From Malaciobacter molluscorum LMG 25693 (GTDB lineage: Bacteria > Campylobacterota > Campylobacteria > Campylobacterales > Arcobacteraceae), in assembly GCF_003544935.1 (NCBI RefSeq), contig NZ_CP032098.1:1116001-1180000 (forward strand): a stretch of 64,000 nt of DNA, written 5' to 3'. The notes under the pieces are model-generated. The model saw nothing but the letters and a program-made list of their open reading frames with translations. It ran no database searches and was not told the origin of the DNA. Position numbers and translations under genes: made by a program. Of this stretch, positions 1 through 9,420 are shown in pieces (position 1 is the stretch's first letter; each line of letters opens with the position of its first letter).

Positions 1-628
1 ACGATTTTTTTGTTTGATTTGGAAGATTAAATATCAAATCAAGATTTGTAATAGGTAAAATACCTTGAATTTTTTTTATTTTATTAATTAATGTATCTTT
101 ATCTCCAAATCTATCAAATCTACTTAATTCTTTTAATATATCATTATCAAAACTTTGAATACCTATTGATAATCTTTTTACTAAACCTTTTAGATTATTT
201 ATTGTAGTAGGTTTTATGTGATTTGGATCAGTTTCACATGATATATCTTCTACTTTGAAAATATTTTTAAGAAGTTTTAGAGTTTTAATAATTTCTTCTT
301 CATGTATTAAAGGACTTCCTCCTCCAATATAAATTGAGTCAATTTTAATATCATAATTTTTTAAAATATGTATCTCTTTTCTCAAGTTTTCAAAATATTT
401 TACAGCTTTTTTTTCATCATATTTATATTTATGAAATGTGCAGAATGGACATAAATTGTCACAAAATGGAATATGAATATATAATAAATAAGAAGCATCT
501 TTTTTTAAATGATTAAATTTATTATCTTTATTTGATGTTTTAACTATTTTTACTGATGAGTCAAATGTTTTATTTATAATACTATTTACTATATTATTTA
601 TTATTACATCTTTTATATTATTAATCAT
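1..628 (-). CDS. Radical SAM protein, HemN/HemW-like (partial, 3' end outside window)
   Basis: About 209 N-terminal residues are visible, running off the left edge with no stop. The radical SAM cluster motif CDNLCPFC (Cys56, Cys60, Cys63) follows a LYIHIPF strand, as in coproporphyrinogen dehydrogenase/HemW-like enzymes. GGGSP (SAM binding) and LSIGIQSFD follow in the usual order. The family includes oxygen-independent coproporphyrinogen III oxidase, the haem chaperone HemW and the haem-degrading HutW/ChuW, and the fragment does not decide between them. The ATG at 628 has a good ribosome binding site (AAGGAG, 7 bases upstream). The gene is divergent from psrA and shares an intergenic region with mirrored operator-like repeats. 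Confidence 0.8.
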   Translation of the reverse strand, partial: MINNIKDVIINNIVNSIINKTFDSSVKIVKTSNKDNKFNHLKKDASYLLYIHIPFCDNLCPFCTFHKYKYDEKKAVKYFENLRKEIHILKNYDIKIDSIYIGGGSPLIHEEEIIKTLKLLKNIFKVEDISCETDPNHIKPTTINNLKGLVKRLSIGIQSFDNDILKELSRFDRFGDKDTLINKIKKIQGILPITNLDLIFNLPNQTKKS

Positions 629-663
629 CTCTAACTCCTTTTTTTTAATTATAAATTAATTGA

Positions 664-726
664 GTAAATTTAATGTAAATTTAAAAAAAATATTAAGTTT
701 TAAATTGAAATTTACATAAAATTTAC
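664..726. promoter_or_regulatory. Mirrored pairs of 11-bp-spaced repeats between the radical SAM gene and psrA
   Basis: GTAAATTT occurs at 664-671 and 675-682. Its reverse complement AAATTTAC occurs at 708-715 and 719-726. Each pair is spaced exactly 11 bp, one helical turn, as for OmpR/PhoB-family regulators that bind tandem half-sites. Read in the sense of its own gene, each pair is AAATTTAC-N3-AAATTTAC. It lies 45 bases before the psrA start and 35 bases before the divergent gene start. I infer that the OmpR-type regulator at 4651-5313 binds here; the repeats are seen directly, the binding is not. Confidence 0.6.
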
Positions 727-771
727 TTTGAAATATTAAGATTTCTTTAATAATTAAATAAAGGATTCAAA

Positions 772-3063
772 ATGAGTAGTACTTATACAAGAAGAGATTT
801 TCTTAAAACTACTTCTTTTTCTGCAATATTGGCAGGTACATCTTGTATGGCGGGTAAGCTAGGCTCTCTAGATACTCCTATGTTTGATGATATAAATAAA
901 ACTGTTAATACATATTGCGAAATGTGTAGTAGTAGATGCCAGGTTGAAGCTAAAGTAAAAAAAGGAAAAGTTACTTTTATCCAAGGTAACTCACATTCAA
1001 AAGGAATGAATACTTCAATCTGTGCAAGGGGTGCTTCAGGTCATTCTCAATTATATGATGAACAAAGATTAGTAAAACCACTTATTAGAGTTGGTAAACG
1101 TGGTGAAGATAAATGGATGGCTGTTTCATATGAAGAGGCTTTTAATTTTATATCTGAAAAATTAAGTAAAATTAAAAAAGAGTATGGAGCAAAATCTGTG
1201 CTATTTTCTGCAAAAACAGGTGAACAATTTAATCATTTAGCAACTTTTACAAGTCTATTTGGTAGTCCTAATCTATTTTCACATGTATCAACTTGTCCTA
1301 TTACATATAAAGTCGCATTTCATCATACTTATGGAGCTGGATTAAAAAGAGATTTTTCAAACTCTAAGTATATATTAAATTTTGGACATAATTTATTTGA
1401 AGGAATTGCAGTTAGTAAAACAAAAAAATTTGCTAAAGCTGTAAATAAAGATAGTTGTAAATTAGTTGTTCTAGAACCAAGATTTTCAATAGTTGCATCA
1501 AAAGCTGATGAATGGCATAGTGTAAAACCAGGTACTGATTTAGCTTTTGTTTTATCATTAATTCATGTTTGGTTACGAGATGGAAAATATGACAAAGAGT
1601 TTGTGAAAAATTATACAGTAGGAATTGAGCAATTAATAGAAAGTACAAAAACAACAACACCTAAATGGCAAGAAAAAATTACTGGAATAAAAGCTGAAGT
1701 TGTTGAGAGAATTGCAAATGAGATTTATGCAGCAGCTCCTTCATGTATTATTGACTGGGGTCATAAAACAACAACAGGTCAAAGTGAATTTCAAAGAACA
1801 AGAGCAATTTTGGTTGCAAATGCTTTAATGGGAAATTTAGAAAAAGAGGGTGGTTTATTTTTTGGTAAAAAAGCAAAAACAGTAAATAAAATTGCAAATA
1901 TGAATATTGCTCCTACAATTTCAAATCCTGATAAACATATAAAAATTGTAAAAGATCTAAGAATAGATAGAGCAAGTCAAAAAGGTGATAATATTTTTGT
2001 TTCAAGAAAATATGGTGTATTAATGGATATTCCTGATGCAATTTTGTCAAAAAAACCTTATGAAGTTAAAGCTTGGGTTATGACAAGAACAAATCCTTTA
2101 ATTACTGTTGCAAATCCTGAAAAAATGAAAGAGGCAATGAATAAATTAGATTTAATTGTTGTAAATGATGTTTATATGTCAGAAACTGCTCAAATAGCAG
2201 ATGTTGTTCTTCCTGAAGCTACATATTTAGAAAGAGATGAAGGAATTCAAGATATTTCTTCTAAAGCACCTGCATATATGATGAGAAATAAAGTAGTTGA
2301 ACCAATAAATAAAACATTGACTAGTTATGAAATTTTTAGAACTTTAGCTAAAAAAATGAATATTGATTCTAAATATAAATGGGATAATATAAATAGTTAT
2401 AGAGCTCATCAAGCAAGTGGTAATATAAAATTATTGGAAAAATTAGCAAAAGATGGATATGTTTCTTTTGGTATTCCTTCTTTACTTTATAGAGAAAAAT
2501 CTTATGTTGATAAATTTGTAGAAAAATATCCTAGTGCATCATCAAATTTGGATGAAAATGGATTATTTACTAAGATGATTAAATTTAAAACTCCTAGTGG
2601 AAAAATAGAGATTTTTTCTCAAACAATTGAAGATGCATTTCCTGGATATGGTGTTCCTGCAAATCATGATATGGATGTACAAAAAGGGTATCCATATATT
2701 ATTACTTCTGGTAAAACAGCAATCCATACAAATGGACATACTCAAAATATTCCATATTTGAATATGTTAATGAGTGATAATCCAGTATGGATAAATCCAA
2801 TTACTGCAAAAAAAGAGAATCTTAAAAATGGAGATAAAATCTTTTTAGAAAATAGTGTTGGTAAAGAAAAAGCAACTGTATTTATTACAGAGGGTATAAG
2901 ACCAGATACTTTATTTGTTTATATGGGATTTGGTAGAGATTCAAAAGAATTAAAAAGAGCTGATGGTAAAGGTACATGTCAATCAAAATTATTGCCTTTA
3001 GATAAAGGCCCAGTATGTTCAACAATGATTACAAATACTGGTGTAAAAATCACTAGAGCTTAA
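772..3063 (+). CDS. psrA: Polysulfide/thiosulfate reductase catalytic subunit A (molybdopterin, Tat-exported)
   Basis: Catalytic subunit of a periplasm-facing polysulfide (or thiosulfate) reductase of the Mo-bisMGD oxidoreductase family, which reduces sulfur compounds with electrons from the quinone pool. A twin-arginine signal with RRDFLK at residues 7-12 directs export of the folded protein. The N-terminal [4Fe-4S] motif uses Cys49, Cys52, Cys56 and Cys84. Cys175 in HVSTCP is the expected molybdenum ligand. A molybdopterin-dinucleotide-binding domain ends the protein. Its 763 residues match the size of Wolinella succinogenes PsrA. psrB follows 10 bases later. Thiosulfate (PhsA) and polysulfide (PsrA) specificity cannot be separated by sequence reading alone. 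Confidence 0.9.
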   Translation: MSSTYTRRDFLKTTSFSAILAGTSCMAGKLGSLDTPMFDDINKTVNTYCEMCSSRCQVEAKVKKGKVTFIQGNSHSKGMNTSICARGASGHSQLYDEQRLVKPLIRVGKRGEDKWMAVSYEEAFNFISEKLSKIKKEYGAKSVLFSAKTGEQFNHLATFTSLFGSPNLFSHVSTCPITYKVAFHHTYGAGLKRDFSNSKYILNFGHNLFEGIAVSKTKKFAKAVNKDSCKLVVLEPRFSIVASKADEWHSVKPGTDLAFVLSLIHVWLRDGKYDKEFVKNYTVGIEQLIESTKTTTPKWQEKITGIKAEVVERIANEIYAAAPSCIIDWGHKTTTGQSEFQRTRAILVANALMGNLEKEGGLFFGKKAKTVNKIANMNIAPTISNPDKHIKIVKDLRIDRASQKGDNIFVSRKYGVLMDIPDAILSKKPYEVKAWVMTRTNPLITVANPEKMKEAMNKLDLIVVNDVYMSETAQIADVVLPEATYLERDEGIQDISSKAPAYMMRNKVVEPINKTLTSYEIFRTLAKKMNIDSKYKWDNINSYRAHQASGNIKLLEKLAKDGYVSFGIPSLLYREKSYVDKFVEKYPSASSNLDENGLFTKMIKFKTPSGKIEIFSQTIEDAFPGYGVPANHDMDVQKGYPYIITSGKTAIHTNGHTQNIPYLNMLMSDNPVWINPITAKKENLKNGDKIFLENSVGKEKATVFITEGIRPDTLFVYMGFGRDSKELKRADGKGTCQSKLLPLDKGPVCSTMITNTGVKITRA

Positions 3064-3073
3064 AGGGTTTATT

Positions 3074-3643
3074 ATGAAAAAGAAATTTAGAATGATACAT
3101 GATGAGAATTTATGTATAGGTTGTCAAGCATGTAGTGTTGCATGTAGAAGTGAAAATGATGTACCTGATAATGTATTTAGAATGCAAGTTCAAATTGAAA
3201 CTAAAGGAATATTTCCTGATTTAAAAATGAATATGCAAAGACACTCTTGTGTAATGTGTGAAGATGCACCATGTGTAACTGTTTGTCCTACAGGGGCATC
3301 ATTTCAAACAAAAGATGGACTTGTTCAAATTGATCATAGATTATGTGTCTCTTGTAAATATTGTGTTGTTGCATGTCCTTATGATGCTAGATTTATGAAT
3401 CCAATAACAAAAAATATAGAGAAATGTACTTTTTGTTACTCTAATAGAGTTTCTAAAGGATTAGAACCTGCATGTGTGACAGTTTGTCCAACTGATGCAT
3501 TAGTATTTGGTGATATAAATGATACAACTTCAGAAGTATATAAAAAAGCAAAAGAGAGTAATCTTTTATATCCTAAAGCTAACTTAGGAACTAAACCAAA
3601 AGTTGCATTTGTTCCTAATAAAAAAGGAGTAAGTTATGAATAA
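3074..3643 (+). CDS. psrB: Polysulfide/thiosulfate reductase iron-sulfur subunit B
   Basis: Electron-transfer subunit that carries electrons from the membrane subunit PsrC to the molybdenum site of PsrA. Four cysteine clusters are visible in order: CIGCQACSVAC, CVMC with CVTVCP, CVSCKYCVVACP, and CTFC with CVTVCP. These are the signature of a four-[4Fe-4S] ferredoxin of the DmsB/PsrB type. The length (189 residues) is typical. It has no signal peptide of its own, so it is presumably exported with PsrA by the Tat system. It overlaps psrC by 8 bases, which suggests translational coupling. Confidence 0.9.
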   Translation: MKKKFRMIHDENLCIGCQACSVACRSENDVPDNVFRMQVQIETKGIFPDLKMNMQRHSCVMCEDAPCVTVCPTGASFQTKDGLVQIDHRLCVSCKYCVVACPYDARFMNPITKNIEKCTFCYSNRVSKGLEPACVTVCPTDALVFGDINDTTSEVYKKAKESNLLYPKANLGTKPKVAFVPNKKGVSYE

Positions 3644-4610
3644 TGTATGGGGAAGTATGGCTCAGTATGATGTAATAAACTGGCCGTGGCCAATTGCTGT
3701 TTATCTTTTTTTAGCAGGAGCTAGTGCAGGTTCTATTATTATTGCTTTATTAGTAAAATGGAATAGACATGATAAAGAAGTAGCAACAATTTGGGATGCG
3801 ATGGTAAAAGCGGGTGCCTTAATATCACCTTTAACAATTATTGTTGGTTTAATTTTATTGATTTTAGATTTAGGTAAACCTTTATCTTTTTATTGGTTAT
3901 TAATTAGTTATAATTTTGAATCGGTTATGACATTAGGTGTAATTGCATTATTTTTATATACACCTTTATCATTAGTTTTTACTGCACTTATTTTTGAGGA
4001 TGTAATCAAAAAAAATGCATTATTATCAATAATTTATCCAGTGGTTAATTATGTAAAATCATATTCAAAATATGCAAAAAAAATAGAGTATGTATTATTC
4101 TTTTTAGCATTAATAGTAGGAGCATATACAGGATTTTTATTATCAGCAAATATGAGTATTCCTATGTGGAACTCTCCTATATTACCAATTTTATTTTTAG
4201 CTTCTGGAATTTCAGCAGGAATTGCAGGAAATATATTAGTTGGAATGTTATTTTTCAAAAGTAGTATAAATAAAGAGAGTATAAAATATCTTTTAATGTT
4301 AGATTTAAGAGTTATTATGCTTGAGATACCTCTTTTATGTTTACTTTTTATAGGAATGTTTTATTCTGGTGGTGCTGCAAAAGTTTCTGCTATGCAAGCT
4401 TTAAGTGTTGGAAATTGGGCTTTAGTTTTTTGGGTTGGAGTAATTGCTGTTGGATTAGTTGCACCTGTAGTAATTGCATTAACAGCATTAAAAAATCATG
4501 ATTATAAAGTTAAATTTATTTTATTTAATTCTATAGTTGTATTAATTGGAGTTATACTTCTTAGATTTTATATTGTTTATGCAGGTCAAATTTTTACGGG
4601 AGCAATATAA
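3636..4610 (+). CDS. psrC: Polysulfide/thiosulfate reductase membrane subunit C (NrfD family)
   Basis: Membrane anchor and quinol-oxidising subunit of the Psr/Phs complex. The 324 residues form about eight to nine hydrophobic helices and begin with the conserved NrfD-type stretch including WPWPIAVYLFLAG. The sequence around residue 70 (ILLILDLGKP) is also typical of NrfD/PsrC. The start overlaps the psrB stop, so the three subunits are one operon. A strong hairpin lies directly after the stop, separating the structural genes from the regulatory genes. Confidence 0.9.
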   Translation: MNNVWGSMAQYDVINWPWPIAVYLFLAGASAGSIIIALLVKWNRHDKEVATIWDAMVKAGALISPLTIIVGLILLILDLGKPLSFYWLLISYNFESVMTLGVIALFLYTPLSLVFTALIFEDVIKKNALLSIIYPVVNYVKSYSKYAKKIEYVLFFLALIVGAYTGFLLSANMSIPMWNSPILPILFLASGISAGIAGNILVGMLFFKSSINKESIKYLLMLDLRVIMLEIPLLCLLFIGMFYSGGAAKVSAMQALSVGNWALVFWVGVIAVGLVAPVVIALTALKNHDYKVKFILFNSIVVLIGVILLRFYIVYAGQIFTGAI

Positions 4611-4637
4611 TTAGAGGGATTTTTAATCTCTCTAATT
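4609..4637 (+). terminator. Hairpin between psrC and the response regulator gene
   Basis: Nearly perfect 13-bp stem: AATTAGAGGGATT pairs with AATCTCTCTAATT across a TTT loop, with one G-T pair. There is no long T-tract after it, so it may be a partial terminator or an RNA-stability element that lowers expression of the downstream regulator relative to psrABC. The regulator ATG lies 14 bases after the stem. Confidence 0.6.
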
Positions 4638-4650
4638 GTATACTAAATGT

Positions 4651-5313
4651 ATGAAAATATTACTTTTAGAAGATGATTATAATTATAATGAAAGTATAAA
4701 AGAGTATCTAGAAGATAGAGGTTTTATTGTAGATAGTTTTTATGATGGACAATCTGCATTAGAGGCAATTGTTGAAAATAAATACTATCTTGCAATATTA
4801 GATATAAAAGTGCCAAAATTAAATGGACATGAAGTTATAAAATATCTAAAAGATATAAATGATAAAACTCCAATAATTATAACTACTTCGTTAGTTGATA
4901 TAGATAATATAACAATTGGTTATCAATTAGGTTGTAAAGATTATTTAAAAAAACCATTTGAATTAAAAGAGTTAGAGTTAAGAATAAATACAATTTTAGA
5001 AACTCAATATAATATAAATACAAAAAAGATTAAACATTTAGAAAATAATTACTCTTTTGATATATCAAATAGATTATTGAAATATAGTAATGAAGTAATT
5101 GATTTAAGTGTAAAAGAAAAAGAACTTGTAGAGTTTTTAGTTAGTAATTCAAATACTTATTGTGATATTGAAACTATAAGAGAAAATGTATGGGAAGGTA
5201 AAGAGATAAACCATGCAGATATAAGAATGTATATAAGAAAAATAAGATTAAAAACTTATAAAGGTTTTATAGTTTCTCATAGAGGTTTAGGATATAAAAT
5301 TGTCGTTTCCTAG
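4651..5313 (+). CDS. OmpR-family response regulator, likely regulator of psrABC
   Basis: DNA-binding response regulator of 220 residues. The receiver domain has the acidic pair ED at residues 7-8, the phospho-acceptor Asp51 in LAILDIKVP and the conserved Lys of KKPF. A winged-helix output domain ends in the typical SHRGLGYKI. An upstream TTG (4636) would lie in the psrC hairpin, so the ATG at 4651 is preferred. It overlaps the kinase gene. Position behind psrABC and the 11-bp repeats before psrA suggest that it controls sulfur respiration; that is inference. Confidence 0.85.
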   Translation: MKILLLEDDYNYNESIKEYLEDRGFIVDSFYDGQSALEAIVENKYYLAILDIKVPKLNGHEVIKYLKDINDKTPIIITTSLVDIDNITIGYQLGCKDYLKKPFELKELELRINTILETQYNINTKKIKHLENNYSFDISNRLLKYSNEVIDLSVKEKELVEFLVSNSNTYCDIETIRENVWEGKEINHADIRMYIRKIRLKTYKGFIVSHRGLGYKIVVS

Positions 5314-6466
5314 TAATGAAAAAAAACTTGCTTATTTTTATACTTTTTTATTGATGATTTTATTCTCAATACCTGTATATTTTACATTAAGTTATGCATT
5401 TGAAAATGAGTTAATAGTAAAGCAAATGGAACTTGAAAACTATGCAAATGAATTAGAAAAAAATATTCATTCTGAAAAAATAGGATTTGCAAGAAGTGTG
5501 AAAGTTAAGTTTGCTTTATTTAATAAAAATCAAAAAGCTCAAACTTACAATTTATCAAAAAAATTAGAAAATTATGAATTTAATATATATAAAAGTTATC
5601 CTTATTTATATTATAGAAAAGATATAGGAAATAATATTTATAATATTTCTTATATCATTTGTGAAATACAATTAGATTATTCTAAAATTCTATTATTGGC
5701 TACAATACTATTTTTTATTATTTTAATAAATATTTATATATTAAATAAAAGTATTATTAAAAATATTTCAAGGCCTTATGAAGTAATGCAAAAATATACA
5801 AATATTTTATTTAATGATACTATGCATGAGTTAAAAACTCCACTTGGTATCATAAATATTAATTTAGATTTATTATCTAGAAAAATAGGAACTTCTAAAC
5901 ATATTCAACGAATGAAAATAGCATTAAAACAAATACAAATTAATTATGAGTCAATAGAATATTATATAAAAAATAAGAGAGTATCTTATCCTAAAGATAA
6001 AATAGATTTATCATCTTATTTAAATTCAAGAATAGACTTTTTTGAAGATATCGCAAATTCTAAATTTATTAATATAAATGTCTATATTCAAGATAATATA
6101 TTTATTTTTATGAATATATTAGAATTGCAAAGAATAGTTGATAATACTTTAATAAATGCAATAAAATACTCTAAACCAAATAGTAAAATTGATATAACAC
6201 TTATTTCTACACTTGATAAATGTTTATTATCTATTAAAGATTATGGATGTGGTATAAAAGATGTAAAAAATGTATTTAAACGTTTTTCAAGAGAAGACCA
6301 AACACAAGGTGGTTTTGGGTTAGGATTAAATATAATTAAAAATATTTGTGATAAAAATAATATAGTTATTGAATTAAAATCAAAAGAAGATGAAGGCTCA
6401 AATTTCACATATATTTTTGAACTTTATAAGATAAAATTTTTAGATAGAATAGAAGATGAAAAATAG
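5300..6466 (+). CDS. Sensor histidine kinase, partner of the psr-linked regulator
   Basis: Membrane histidine kinase of 388 residues. There are two transmembrane helices (about 10-33 and 129-149) around a periplasmic loop of only about 95 residues. The phosphoacceptor is His176 in MHELKTPLG, followed by N-, G1- (DYGCGIKD) and G2-like (GFGLGLNI) ATP-binding boxes. The TTG start at 5300 overlaps the regulator gene by 14 bases. AGGA lies 7 bases upstream, and no ATG lies before the first helix. The stop overlaps the next gene by 11 bases. All three regulatory genes are probably coupled. Confidence 0.85.
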   Translation: MSFPSNEKKLAYFYTFLLMILFSIPVYFTLSYAFENELIVKQMELENYANELEKNIHSEKIGFARSVKVKFALFNKNQKAQTYNLSKKLENYEFNIYKSYPYLYYRKDIGNNIYNISYIICEIQLDYSKILLLATILFFIILINIYILNKSIIKNISRPYEVMQKYTNILFNDTMHELKTPLGIININLDLLSRKIGTSKHIQRMKIALKQIQINYESIEYYIKNKRVSYPKDKIDLSSYLNSRIDFFEDIANSKFININVYIQDNIFIFMNILELQRIVDNTLINAIKYSKPNSKIDITLISTLDKCLLSIKDYGCGIKDVKNVFKRFSREDQTQGGFGLGLNIIKNICDKNNIVIELKSKEDEGSNFTYIFELYKIKFLDRIEDEK

Positions 6467-7274
6467 AAATATTATAGGTATTATTCTTATTGTACTTTTT
6501 AGTGCTTCAACATTAATTTGGGTATTTAATAATTATTTAACATCTCAAAAAAAACAAAAAGATGAAAAAATAATAGATTTATATCTTGGTGAATTATCAG
6601 GATTAATAAATAAAAATAAAAATTTAGTATTAACAGCTTCTGTTCTTCTTGCAAAAGATGAAAGCATAAAGAAATGTCTAAAAACAGATAATCAAAATAG
6701 TTGTTTTAAATATTTAATAAAATCAAAACAAGGATTATTAAATACTCAAATTTTTGATAATCTTAAAATACATGTTCATGATAAAGATTTAAAAAGTTTT
6801 TTTAGATTATGGGATCCTAAAAAAGAAAGAGATTCTTTGAAATCTTTTAGATACTCTTTGTCTATAGTAAAAGAAGAAAAAAGATCAATTTCATGCATTG
6901 AAATAGGGCGATATTCTATGTTAATAAGAGGAATTACCCCTGTTTTTGATGAAGATAAGTATATTGGATCAATAGAAGCAATAACTAACTTTGATTCAAT
7001 TATAAAACATTTTAGACAACAAAATATAAGTCTTTATATTTTGATGAAAAATAAATATAAAAATATCGCATCAAAGATAGATTTTAACAATGAACAAAAA
7101 TTAAAAAATTATATACTATTAAATCAAACAAATAAAAATATCTCTTTTTTGTATGATTTGAAATTAGATGGTACAAATTATGAAAAAAAAGGATCTTTTT
7201 ATTTAGTTAGTACACCAATTTATGATATAAGAAAAACAATAATTGGATATTATGTCCTTAAATTATATTTATAA
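6456..7274 (+). CDS. Membrane-anchored Cache-type sensor protein without output domain
   Basis: 272 residues with one N-terminal transmembrane helix (about 5-27) and then a periplasmic region that fills the protein. The stretch including KIHVHDKD, SFFRLWDP, SCIEIGRY and RGITPV resembles the double-Cache ligand-binding region found in chemoreceptors and kinases. No kinase, HAMP or methyl-accepting domain follows. The gene overlaps the histidine kinase gene, so the protein is probably a separate ligand-sensing subunit of the same signalling unit. Its ligand is unknown; a sulfur oxyanion or polysulfide would fit the psr context. Confidence 0.65.
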   Translation: MKNRNIIGIILIVLFSASTLIWVFNNYLTSQKKQKDEKIIDLYLGELSGLINKNKNLVLTASVLLAKDESIKKCLKTDNQNSCFKYLIKSKQGLLNTQIFDNLKIHVHDKDLKSFFRLWDPKKERDSLKSFRYSLSIVKEEKRSISCIEIGRYSMLIRGITPVFDEDKYIGSIEAITNFDSIIKHFRQQNISLYILMKNKYKNIASKIDFNNEQKLKNYILLNQTNKNISFLYDLKLDGTNYEKKGSFYLVSTPIYDIRKTIIGYYVLKLYL

Positions 7275-7276
7275 AA

Positions 7277-8086
7277 TTAATATAAAATTTTATAATTAAC
7301 ATATATTCTTATCTTTGTTTTTTCTTTTGGTCTAGGATAGTCTTTATATGCAGTTTCTACAGTTTCTTTTGTATTTTTATCTAATGTTGAATAACTAGAT
7401 GAATTGATTATTTTCATATCACTTATATCCCCATTTGGATATAAATAAAATTCAATTACATTCATTCCTTCTTGTTTTGTTCTAACTGCAATTCTAGGAT
7501 ATCCTCTTTTATAAAGATAATTTTGTGTAATTCTTCCTATACTTTTTAAATTATTTTGTAAAAACTCTTTTTGTACTTTTGTGAATTTGTCATACTCTTT
7601 TCCATATAATTTAATATAACTTTTTGTTTCATTATCTAATAACTCTTTATCTAATACTTGGTTTGACAATAAAAAGTTTTCTAAAGGGTCTGATTTTACA
7701 CTTCTTTTTTGTTGTTCTTGGATTTGTTTATCTACTTTTTTTAATTGTTGTTTTTTTTCAACTACTTTTTTTTCTTTTTCTTTAGTTATTGGAATTACTT
7801 TTTTTGTTCTTTTCTTTTGAGGAAGAATCTTTTTATTAACTTTTGTATATTCTTTTTGTTGTTTTTGTTCTGTTTTATTTGTTGAATCGATAGTTTTTGG
7901 TTTTTGTTGTGATTGAATAGGTTTAGATTTTTTTAATCTAACAAAAGTTAAAGAACTCTTATTTGAATTTGGTTTTAATCTATTTTCTTGTATAAAGTTC
8001 TCTTGTTTTTTTTGCACTTTATAATTATATAAAAAAAGAATATGTATAGTAATAGATAAAATAAAAGCAAATATAATCGTTTTCAT
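7277..8086 (-). CDS. TonB-like protein with C-terminal TonB domain
   Basis: 269 residues from the ATG at 8086. The layout is an N-terminal membrane helix (MKTIIFAFILSITIHILFLY), a long Lys/Gln-rich spacer (about residues 25-165), and a C-terminal TonB-type domain with GYPRIAVR, EFYLYPNGDISDMKI and a final YVNYKIL strand. TonB proteins transmit proton-motive energy from ExbB/ExbD to outer-membrane transporters. No exbBD is next to it. A longer reading to 8206 would cover the hemL start and its promoter, so it is rejected. It converges with the sensor gene, with 2 bases between stops. Confidence 0.75.
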   Translation of the reverse strand: MKTIIFAFILSITIHILFLYNYKVQKKQENFIQENRLKPNSNKSSLTFVRLKKSKPIQSQQKPKTIDSTNKTEQKQQKEYTKVNKKILPQKKRTKKVIPITKEKEKKVVEKKQQLKKVDKQIQEQQKRSVKSDPLENFLLSNQVLDKELLDNETKSYIKLYGKEYDKFTKVQKEFLQNNLKSIGRITQNYLYKRGYPRIAVRTKQEGMNVIEFYLYPNGDISDMKIINSSSYSTLDKNTKETVETAYKDYPRPKEKTKIRIYVNYKILY

Positions 8087-8099
8087 AACGGGATTATAG

Positions 8100-8105
8100 T
8101 ATAAT
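8100..8105 (+). promoter_or_regulatory. Predicted -10 box for hemL
   Basis: TATAAT lies 35 bases upstream of the hemL ATG, in the short gap between the divergent TonB-like gene and hemL. No clear -35 box is visible, which is usual for sigma-70 promoters of Campylobacterota. Confidence 0.5.
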
Positions 8106-8139
8106 GAAGCTTTTAAATTTAACAAAGATAGGATATTAA

Positions 8140-9420
8140 ATGTTTGAAAACTCAATAACAGCATATGAAGAAGCAAAGAATGTAATTCCAGGTGGAGTTG
8201 ATTCACCAGTTAGAGCATTTAAAAGTGTAGGTGGAACACCTCCTTTTATTGATAGAGGTGAGGGAGCTTATCTTTATGATATTGATGGAAATAAATATTT
8301 GGATTTTGTTCAAAGCTGGGGACCTTTGATTTTTGGACATTGTGATAAAGATATTGAACAAGCAGTTATCGAAACTGCAAAAAAAGGTTTAAGTTTTGGT
8401 GCACCAACTGTTCTTGAAACAAAACTTGCAAATGAAATTGTTGAAATGTATGATAATATAGATAAAGTAAGATTTGTAAATAGTGGAACAGAAGCTGTAA
8501 TGTCAGCTATTAGATTAGCAAGAGGGGTTACAGGAAAAAATAATATCTTAAAATTTGAAGGGTGTTATCATGGTCATTCAGATTCACTTTTAGTTCAAGC
8601 TGGTTCTGGTATGGCTACATTTGGAAGTCCAAGTTCACCTGGTGTTCCAGCTGATTTAACGAAACATACAATATTATGTGAGTATAACAACATTGAAGAT
8701 TTGAGAAAATGTTTTGAAGCAAGTGATGATATTGCTTGTTTAATTATTGAACCAATAGCAGGTAATATGGGATTTGTTCCAGCTAATGAAGAGTTCTTAG
8801 AAGAGTGTAGAAGACTTTGTGATGAAAATGGAACACTATTAATTTTTGATGAGGTAATGAGTGGATTTAGAGCAAGTTTAACAGGAGCACATGGTGTTGT
8901 TAAACCAAATGCTGATATTGTTACTTTTGGAAAAGTAATTGGTGGTGGTATGCCAGTTGGTGCATTTGCTTCAAATGAAGAAATAATGAACAACTTAAGT
9001 CCTGACGGTGCTATTTATCAAGCAGGAACATTAAGTGGAAATCCAGTTGCTATGGCAGCAGGATTAGTTAGTTTACAAAAAATAAAAGCAGATAAAGATT
9101 TATATAATAGATTAAATGCAAAAACACAAAAATTATTAAATGGTTTCAAACAAGCAGCAGAAAAGTATAATATTGCATTTCAATCTAAATCTATTGGATC
9201 AATGTTTGGCTTTTTCTTTTGTGATATAGAGCCTAAGAACTTCAAAGATGTTGGAACTTGTGATTTTGATAGATTTGCAAAATTTCATCATGAAATGTTA
9301 AAAAGAGGATTCTATTTTGCTTGTTCTCAATATGAAACAGGATTTATGTGCGATGCGATTAGCGATGAAGATATTGACAATTGTATAAATGCTGCAAATG
9401 AAGTAATGGAATTATTATAA
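8140..9420 (+). CDS. hemL: Glutamate-1-semialdehyde 2,1-aminomutase
   Basis: PLP enzyme of the C5 haem pathway that converts glutamate-1-semialdehyde to 5-aminolevulinate. The 426 residues match the family length. Visible signatures are the N-terminal [26 protein letters not shown], the YHGHSD loop, [10 protein letters not shown] and the PLP-lysine motif [15 protein letters not shown]. The start is supported by the family N-terminus and the -10 box upstream. An AtpZ-like gene follows 14 bases after the stop. Confidence 0.96.

Follow-up and report, generated by a model that had tools for sequence, protein, structure and literature searches.

Two genes of opposite orientation start on either side of a 143-bp intergenic region in Malaciobacter molluscorum LMG 25693, one encoding a radical SAM protein and the other PhsA/PsrA, the catalytic subunit of a sulfur-respiration enzyme. 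The locus raises the question of whether both genes answer to a single control, as the initial annotation had proposed from mirrored tandem repeats found between them. The window (the whole stretch of 64,000 nucleotides that was analysed) was compared with related genomes. The reading that we favour, with a probability of roughly 0.7, is that the two genes would form one two-component regulon, in which the response regulator encoded at 4651–5313 binds both repeat copies and activates phsABC and the MqnK-like radical SAM gene together.

The intergenic region contains two exact copies of AAATTTAC-N3-AAATTTAC, at 664–682 on the minus strand and at 708–726 on the plus strand, each oriented toward its own gene and each placed precisely where the annotation had put it (Table 1). 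No other exact match is present in the 2,800,582-bp genome. In dinucleotide shuffles of the 143-bp region, any 8-mer repeat at a lag of 11 appeared in 123 of 20,000 sequences, and the mirrored arrangement in none of the 20,000. When up to two mismatches are allowed, the genome shows no excess (44 matches versus 59 for a reversed control pattern); at up to three, the window holds fewer matches than its shuffles (8 versus 13.3). This last comparison is the point in favour of regarding the repeats as a chance product of AT-rich sequence. Such a doubt is reasonable when one low-complexity, AT-rich sequence is considered alone; here it is settled by the conservation of the repeats in relatives. Exact, mirrored and unique in the genome, and kept across families at a fixed spacing, they leave a chance origin virtually no probability.

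Table 1. Features of the divergent promoter region and of the adjoining genes, in coordinates of the window
Feature	Position	Strand	Remarks
Radical SAM gene, NF006385, MqnK/MenK-like	2..628	-	Start at 628; 209 of 422 codons inside the window, end outside
Probable -10 box TATAAT, radical SAM gene	648..653	-	10 bp after operator; consensus only
Operator (predicted), radical SAM gene	664..682	-	AAATTTACATTAAATTTAC; two half-sites, 11 bp apart
Operator (predicted), phsABC	708..726	+	AAATTTACATAAAATTTAC; two half-sites, 11 bp apart
Probable -10 box TAAGAT, phsA	737..742	+	10 bp after operator; consensus only
phsA/psrA, molybdopterin catalytic subunit	772..3063	+	NCBIfam PhsA 1069 bits, cut-off 694
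phsB/psrB, 4Fe-4S electron-transfer subunit	3074..3643	+	
phsC/psrC, NrfD-type membrane quinol-oxidising subunit	3636..4610	+	PF03916 NrfD
OmpR-family response regulator	4651..5313	+	PF00072 and PF00486 above cut-off; upstream TTG at 4636 possible start
Sensor histidine kinase, partner of the regulator	5300..6466	+	PF02518; linked in relatives
Free sensory protein with dCache_3 domain; may bind the signal for the kinase	6456..7274	+	PF14827; linked in many relatives

Relatives of phsA occur in 83 of 347 genomes of the class, and the comparison covered 42 non-redundant regions upstream of phsA in Campylobacteria. TTTAC-N6-TTTAC, at a lag of 11 bp, is present in 20 of these 42 regions (shuffle mean 0.035), and none has an exact TTTAC pair at a lag of 6 to 26 other than 11. 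It had been suggested that the repeats be sought in front of psrA orthologues, and they are indeed conserved at phsA/psrA in three families, so that the ground named for rejecting the proposal, a lack of conservation among relatives, does not apply. A direct repeat of 11 bp fits the proposed OmpR-family operator, and an OmpR-family regulator accompanies phsA. The repeats are absent in the Campylobacter concisus-like group, though the phs genes and the regulator are kept. In four Campylobacteraceae genomes (G350, G204, G333 and G237) the phsA match has one in-frame stop codon, which suggests decay of this gene in some species. An inverted-repeat reading was also considered, given the palindrome AAATTT within AAATTTAC, and was rejected: the half-sites of Campylobacteraceae are TTTTAC or ATTTAC, and the conserved part is the direct TTTAC only.

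A TANNNT -10 box lies exactly 10 bp past the second repeat in all 25 phsA promoters that have the repeats with at most one mismatch, and at the same distance in the radical SAM promoters of all seven Arcobacteraceae relatives. Positions 664–726 would thus form a double divergent promoter in which the same operator occurs twice, each time as a pair of TTTAC-type half-sites 11 bp apart that stands in for the -35 element and lies 10 bp before the -10 box. Direct half-sites about one 11-bp step apart, in a fixed place upstream of a consensus-defined -10 box and replacing the -35, point by analogy to the PhoB/OmpR class II type of activator promoter. The sites also overlap the expected -35 position, as they would if the regulator repressed both promoters by covering this region until released by the signal. 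However, a repressor site could presumably slide, and the rigid 10-bp spacing (25/25) points to contact with RNA polymerase; activation is therefore favoured, and repression seems quite unlikely.

A search of 21 genomes for the operator with its -10 box at zero mismatch returned 18 matches, all of them at psrA/phsA or radical SAM promoters, to which the element is nearly exclusive. As for a wider regulon, Arcobacteraceae matches at two mismatches are at background level, with about equal numbers in the controls. Of the psrA copies in the Sulfurospirillum cluster, the first is preceded by AATTTACATAAAATTTAC-N10-TAAGAT; at the end of the operon, the radical SAM gene has an operator with one base changed and a spacing of 10 or 11 bp. 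Window-type phsA has no operator directly in front of it in this genus because the operator lies before a psrA copy further upstream in that cluster. Ten Sulfurospirillum genomes share a third operator-like site, ATTTACATATAATTTAC-N10-TANNNT, with one or two mismatches. In the two examined, it precedes a gene for a methyl-accepting chemotaxis protein (L318 2996–3028 in G242; L319 2966–2998 in G338), possibly a third member of the regulon in this genus.

The enzyme itself was assigned to PhsA/PsrA by a PhsA equivalog score above the cut-off and by the accompanying genes for PhsB and an NrfD-type PhsC. Sequence does not decide between thiosulfate and polysulfide as the substrate in vivo. Arcobacter anaerophilus IR-1, which has psrAB, uses elemental sulfur but not thiosulfate as a growth acceptor (PMC4584990). 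The 4651–5313 protein combines a receiver with a Trans_reg_C domain, as is expected of a cognate regulator, and PmrA/BasR is among the PDB proteins related to it in sequence. An OmpR-family regulator and a kinase are encoded 3´ of phsABC in Arcobacteraceae, Sulfurospirillum and Campylobacteraceae; the sensor gene often adjoins in the latter two, on the opposite strand in Campylobacteraceae. Of 104 Arcobacteraceae genomes, the seven with phsA (E ≤ 1e-150) are also the seven with a close orthologue of the regulator (at least 67% identity). The recognition-helix stretch ADIRMYI.KIR is common to the regulators of Arcobacteraceae and Sulfurospirillum, in nearly the same form, and differs in unlinked paralogues. 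The kinase would phosphorylate the regulator, with the dCache_3 protein as the probable signal binder, and a regulator dimer on each operator copy would then activate phsABC and the divergent radical SAM gene jointly. The inducing signal is probably polysulfide or thiosulfate. The TonB-family protein encoded at 7277–8206 on the minus strand, by a gene that converges on the sensor gene's end, lies outside the system.

In five of the seven genomes, phsA and the radical SAM gene are divergent neighbours. In the other two, both Malaciobacter, the radical SAM gene is unlinked, lying 344 kb away in G079 and on another contig in G078. In these two genomes phsA is still preceded by AAATTTACATAAAATTTAT, and the distant radical SAM gene keeps AATTTACATTAAATTTAC-N10-TANNNT. 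Since the unlinked proteins are placed as sisters to the phs-linked ones with full support (100/100), they are regarded as products of the same, orthologous gene. The operator is thus conserved at the radical SAM gene in 7/7 Arcobacteraceae genomes with phsA. It is absent before the radical SAM paralogues of those genomes (0/3) and before the members of family genomes that lack this regulator (0/6). The site is kept at the unlinked genes and found at none of these nine others, which separates shared regulation from mere adjacency and supports the idea of one control for the radical SAM gene and sulfur respiration.

That control may be exerted by a different protein from the one encoded at 4651–5313, either a paralogous OmpR-type regulator or an AraC-type one. 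The genome encodes 16 proteins that match the regulator at E ≤ 1e-25, and psrABC of Wolinella is under the AraC-type PsrR (PMC6682613). However, the linkage of the regulator gene to phsABC and their co-occurrence across families, the fit of the OmpR family to an 11-bp direct repeat, and the lack of the site in the six regulator-less genomes make another reader of the operator quite unlikely.

In Campylobacteraceae, radical SAM promoters show no consistent operator (a one-mismatch site in 2 of 24), and the gene would lie mostly outside the regulon. In a Campylobacter group without phsA (g29), a one-mismatch site with 10- or 11-bp spacing precedes 14 of 32 radical SAM genes, which are related sequences. 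The conserved one-mismatch tandem TTTAC repeat was seen there at L218–L221, L227, L228, L232 and L238, and despite it a phs-type regulator was not found in this group. These Campylobacteraceae patterns, like the loss of the repeats in the Campylobacter concisus-like group, speak against the favoured reading.

With regard to its identity, the radical SAM protein of the window scores 487.7 bits against NCBIfam NF006385 (cut-off 355), a model whose own name is coproporphyrinogen III oxidase family. In G263, which we take to be Wolinella succinogenes DSM 1740, the psr-adjacent protein reaches 658.7 bits against the same cut-off, and an AraC-type gene lies between its gene and psrABC; the TTTAC tandem repeat was not found in this radical SAM/AraC-type/psrABC region. 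Four of the six MqnK/MenK motifs (PMC10320005) are present in the window protein: LYxHxPFCxxxCxxCxF, YFxxxRxE, RxSxGxQxFxxxxL and QxTxYPLx. GxxFxxxYxGGGT and NxFxxxxY are absent in their strict form, the latter being present in four orthologues. Because these two motifs are missing, the protein is called MqnK-like and is not filed as an MqnK/MenK member. The HemN signature GPRYTSYPT and the HemW signature HNxxYW are both absent. The "haem-type" label of the annotation is corrected here, a methylmenaquinone synthase being the better reading. Methylmenaquinone, made by MqnK, is reported to be the quinone of polysulfide respiration and to interact with PsrC (PMC6682613, PMC13209400). Most likely, the protein converts menaquinone to 8-methylmenaquinone. 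The divergent genes would then plausibly provide a low-potential quinone and the NrfD-type reductase that draws its electrons from it, both made on the same signal.

The same regulon could instead tie haem supply to sulfur respiration, if the radical SAM protein were a haem chaperone or an enzyme of haem metabolism. CgdH2 of C. jejuni, which groups with MenK, is reported to bind haem and to obtain it from ferrochelatase (PMC10320005), and the two missing methyltransferase motifs would be in line with such a role. However, neither haem-enzyme signature is present; in G263 a relative of the protein is encoded beside psrABC, and in G261 one beside a MenG/UbiE gene. Moreover, to our knowledge the PhsABC subunits contain no haem. 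A function in haem supply is thus considered unlikely, and synthesis of methylmenaquinone remains the preferred reading.

Other arrangements of this gene type were also observed. In G261, whose genome has no phsA match, the radical SAM relative is divergent from the MenG/UbiE gene, with operator-like tandem repeats toward both (L276 16011–18284). Radical SAM paralogues lie near a second NrfC/NrfD-type gene pair at L071, L072, L073 and L276 370–9531; L276 also has a multihaem cytochrome gene nearby, in an arrangement that resembles the mcc sulfite-reductase cluster. The operator is absent at the L071–L073 paralogues.

In the tree of radical SAM proteins, the phs-linked genes lie on two sides of a well-supported branch, Arcobacteraceae on one and Sulfurospirillum and Wolinella on the other; the second S. 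cavolei copy falls on the Arcobacteraceae side. Because of this branch, the operator was probably acquired twice by this kind of gene, with some uncertainty in long-branch and root placing. A broader view, to which we give slightly less than even odds, is that the terminal reductase and the make-up of the quinone pool are both set by one sulfur-responsive two-component system, whose operator would have captured a methylmenaquinone-synthase gene on two or more occasions, the paralogue lineage in Arcobacteraceae being different from that in Sulfurospirillum. If so, quinone remodelling would be a regulated and selected part of the switch to sulfur respiration. Methylmenaquinone is thought to serve low-potential respiration, and according to a 2019 review the functional distinction between menaquinone and methylmenaquinone had not yet been made in Campylobacterota (PMC6682613). 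A regulon dedicated to the probable methylating enzyme and the reductase, even where their genes are apart, would be independent evidence that both belong together.

Although the kind of mechanism is already known, the regulon appears to be undescribed in the open-access literature searched, which yielded nothing specific on a two-component regulator linked to phs genes in Campylobacter or Malaciobacter. The sole regulator found described there for this system in the phylum is PsrR of Wolinella, which is unrelated; the present locus supplies a candidate for both regulator and operator.

In class II promoters of PhoB and PmrA (BasR), the -35 element is replaced by direct half-sites about one helical turn apart, whose distance to the -10 box is fixed. 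The layout found here is the same, with differences in half-site sequence (TTTAC type) and target genes. PsrR of Wolinella succinogenes, which controls psrABC, belongs to the AraC family (PMC6682613), unlike the OmpR-family regulator of this locus. ThsSR of Shewanella halifaxensis is also a two-component system encoded beside phs genes (phsAB-psrC), and it activates phsA in response to thiosulfate. Its operator, however, spans 18 bp and has inverted repeats of 6 bp instead of an 11-bp direct repeat, and a quinone gene is not reported among its targets (PMC5408782). Finally, PceSP of Sulfurospirillum differs in its site (CTATW-N17-CTATW) and its target, tetrachloroethene respiration, but it likewise involves a regulator of the OmpR family that controls a respiratory regulon in Campylobacterota, acting at direct repeats, most of which overlap the -35 box (PMC7755780).
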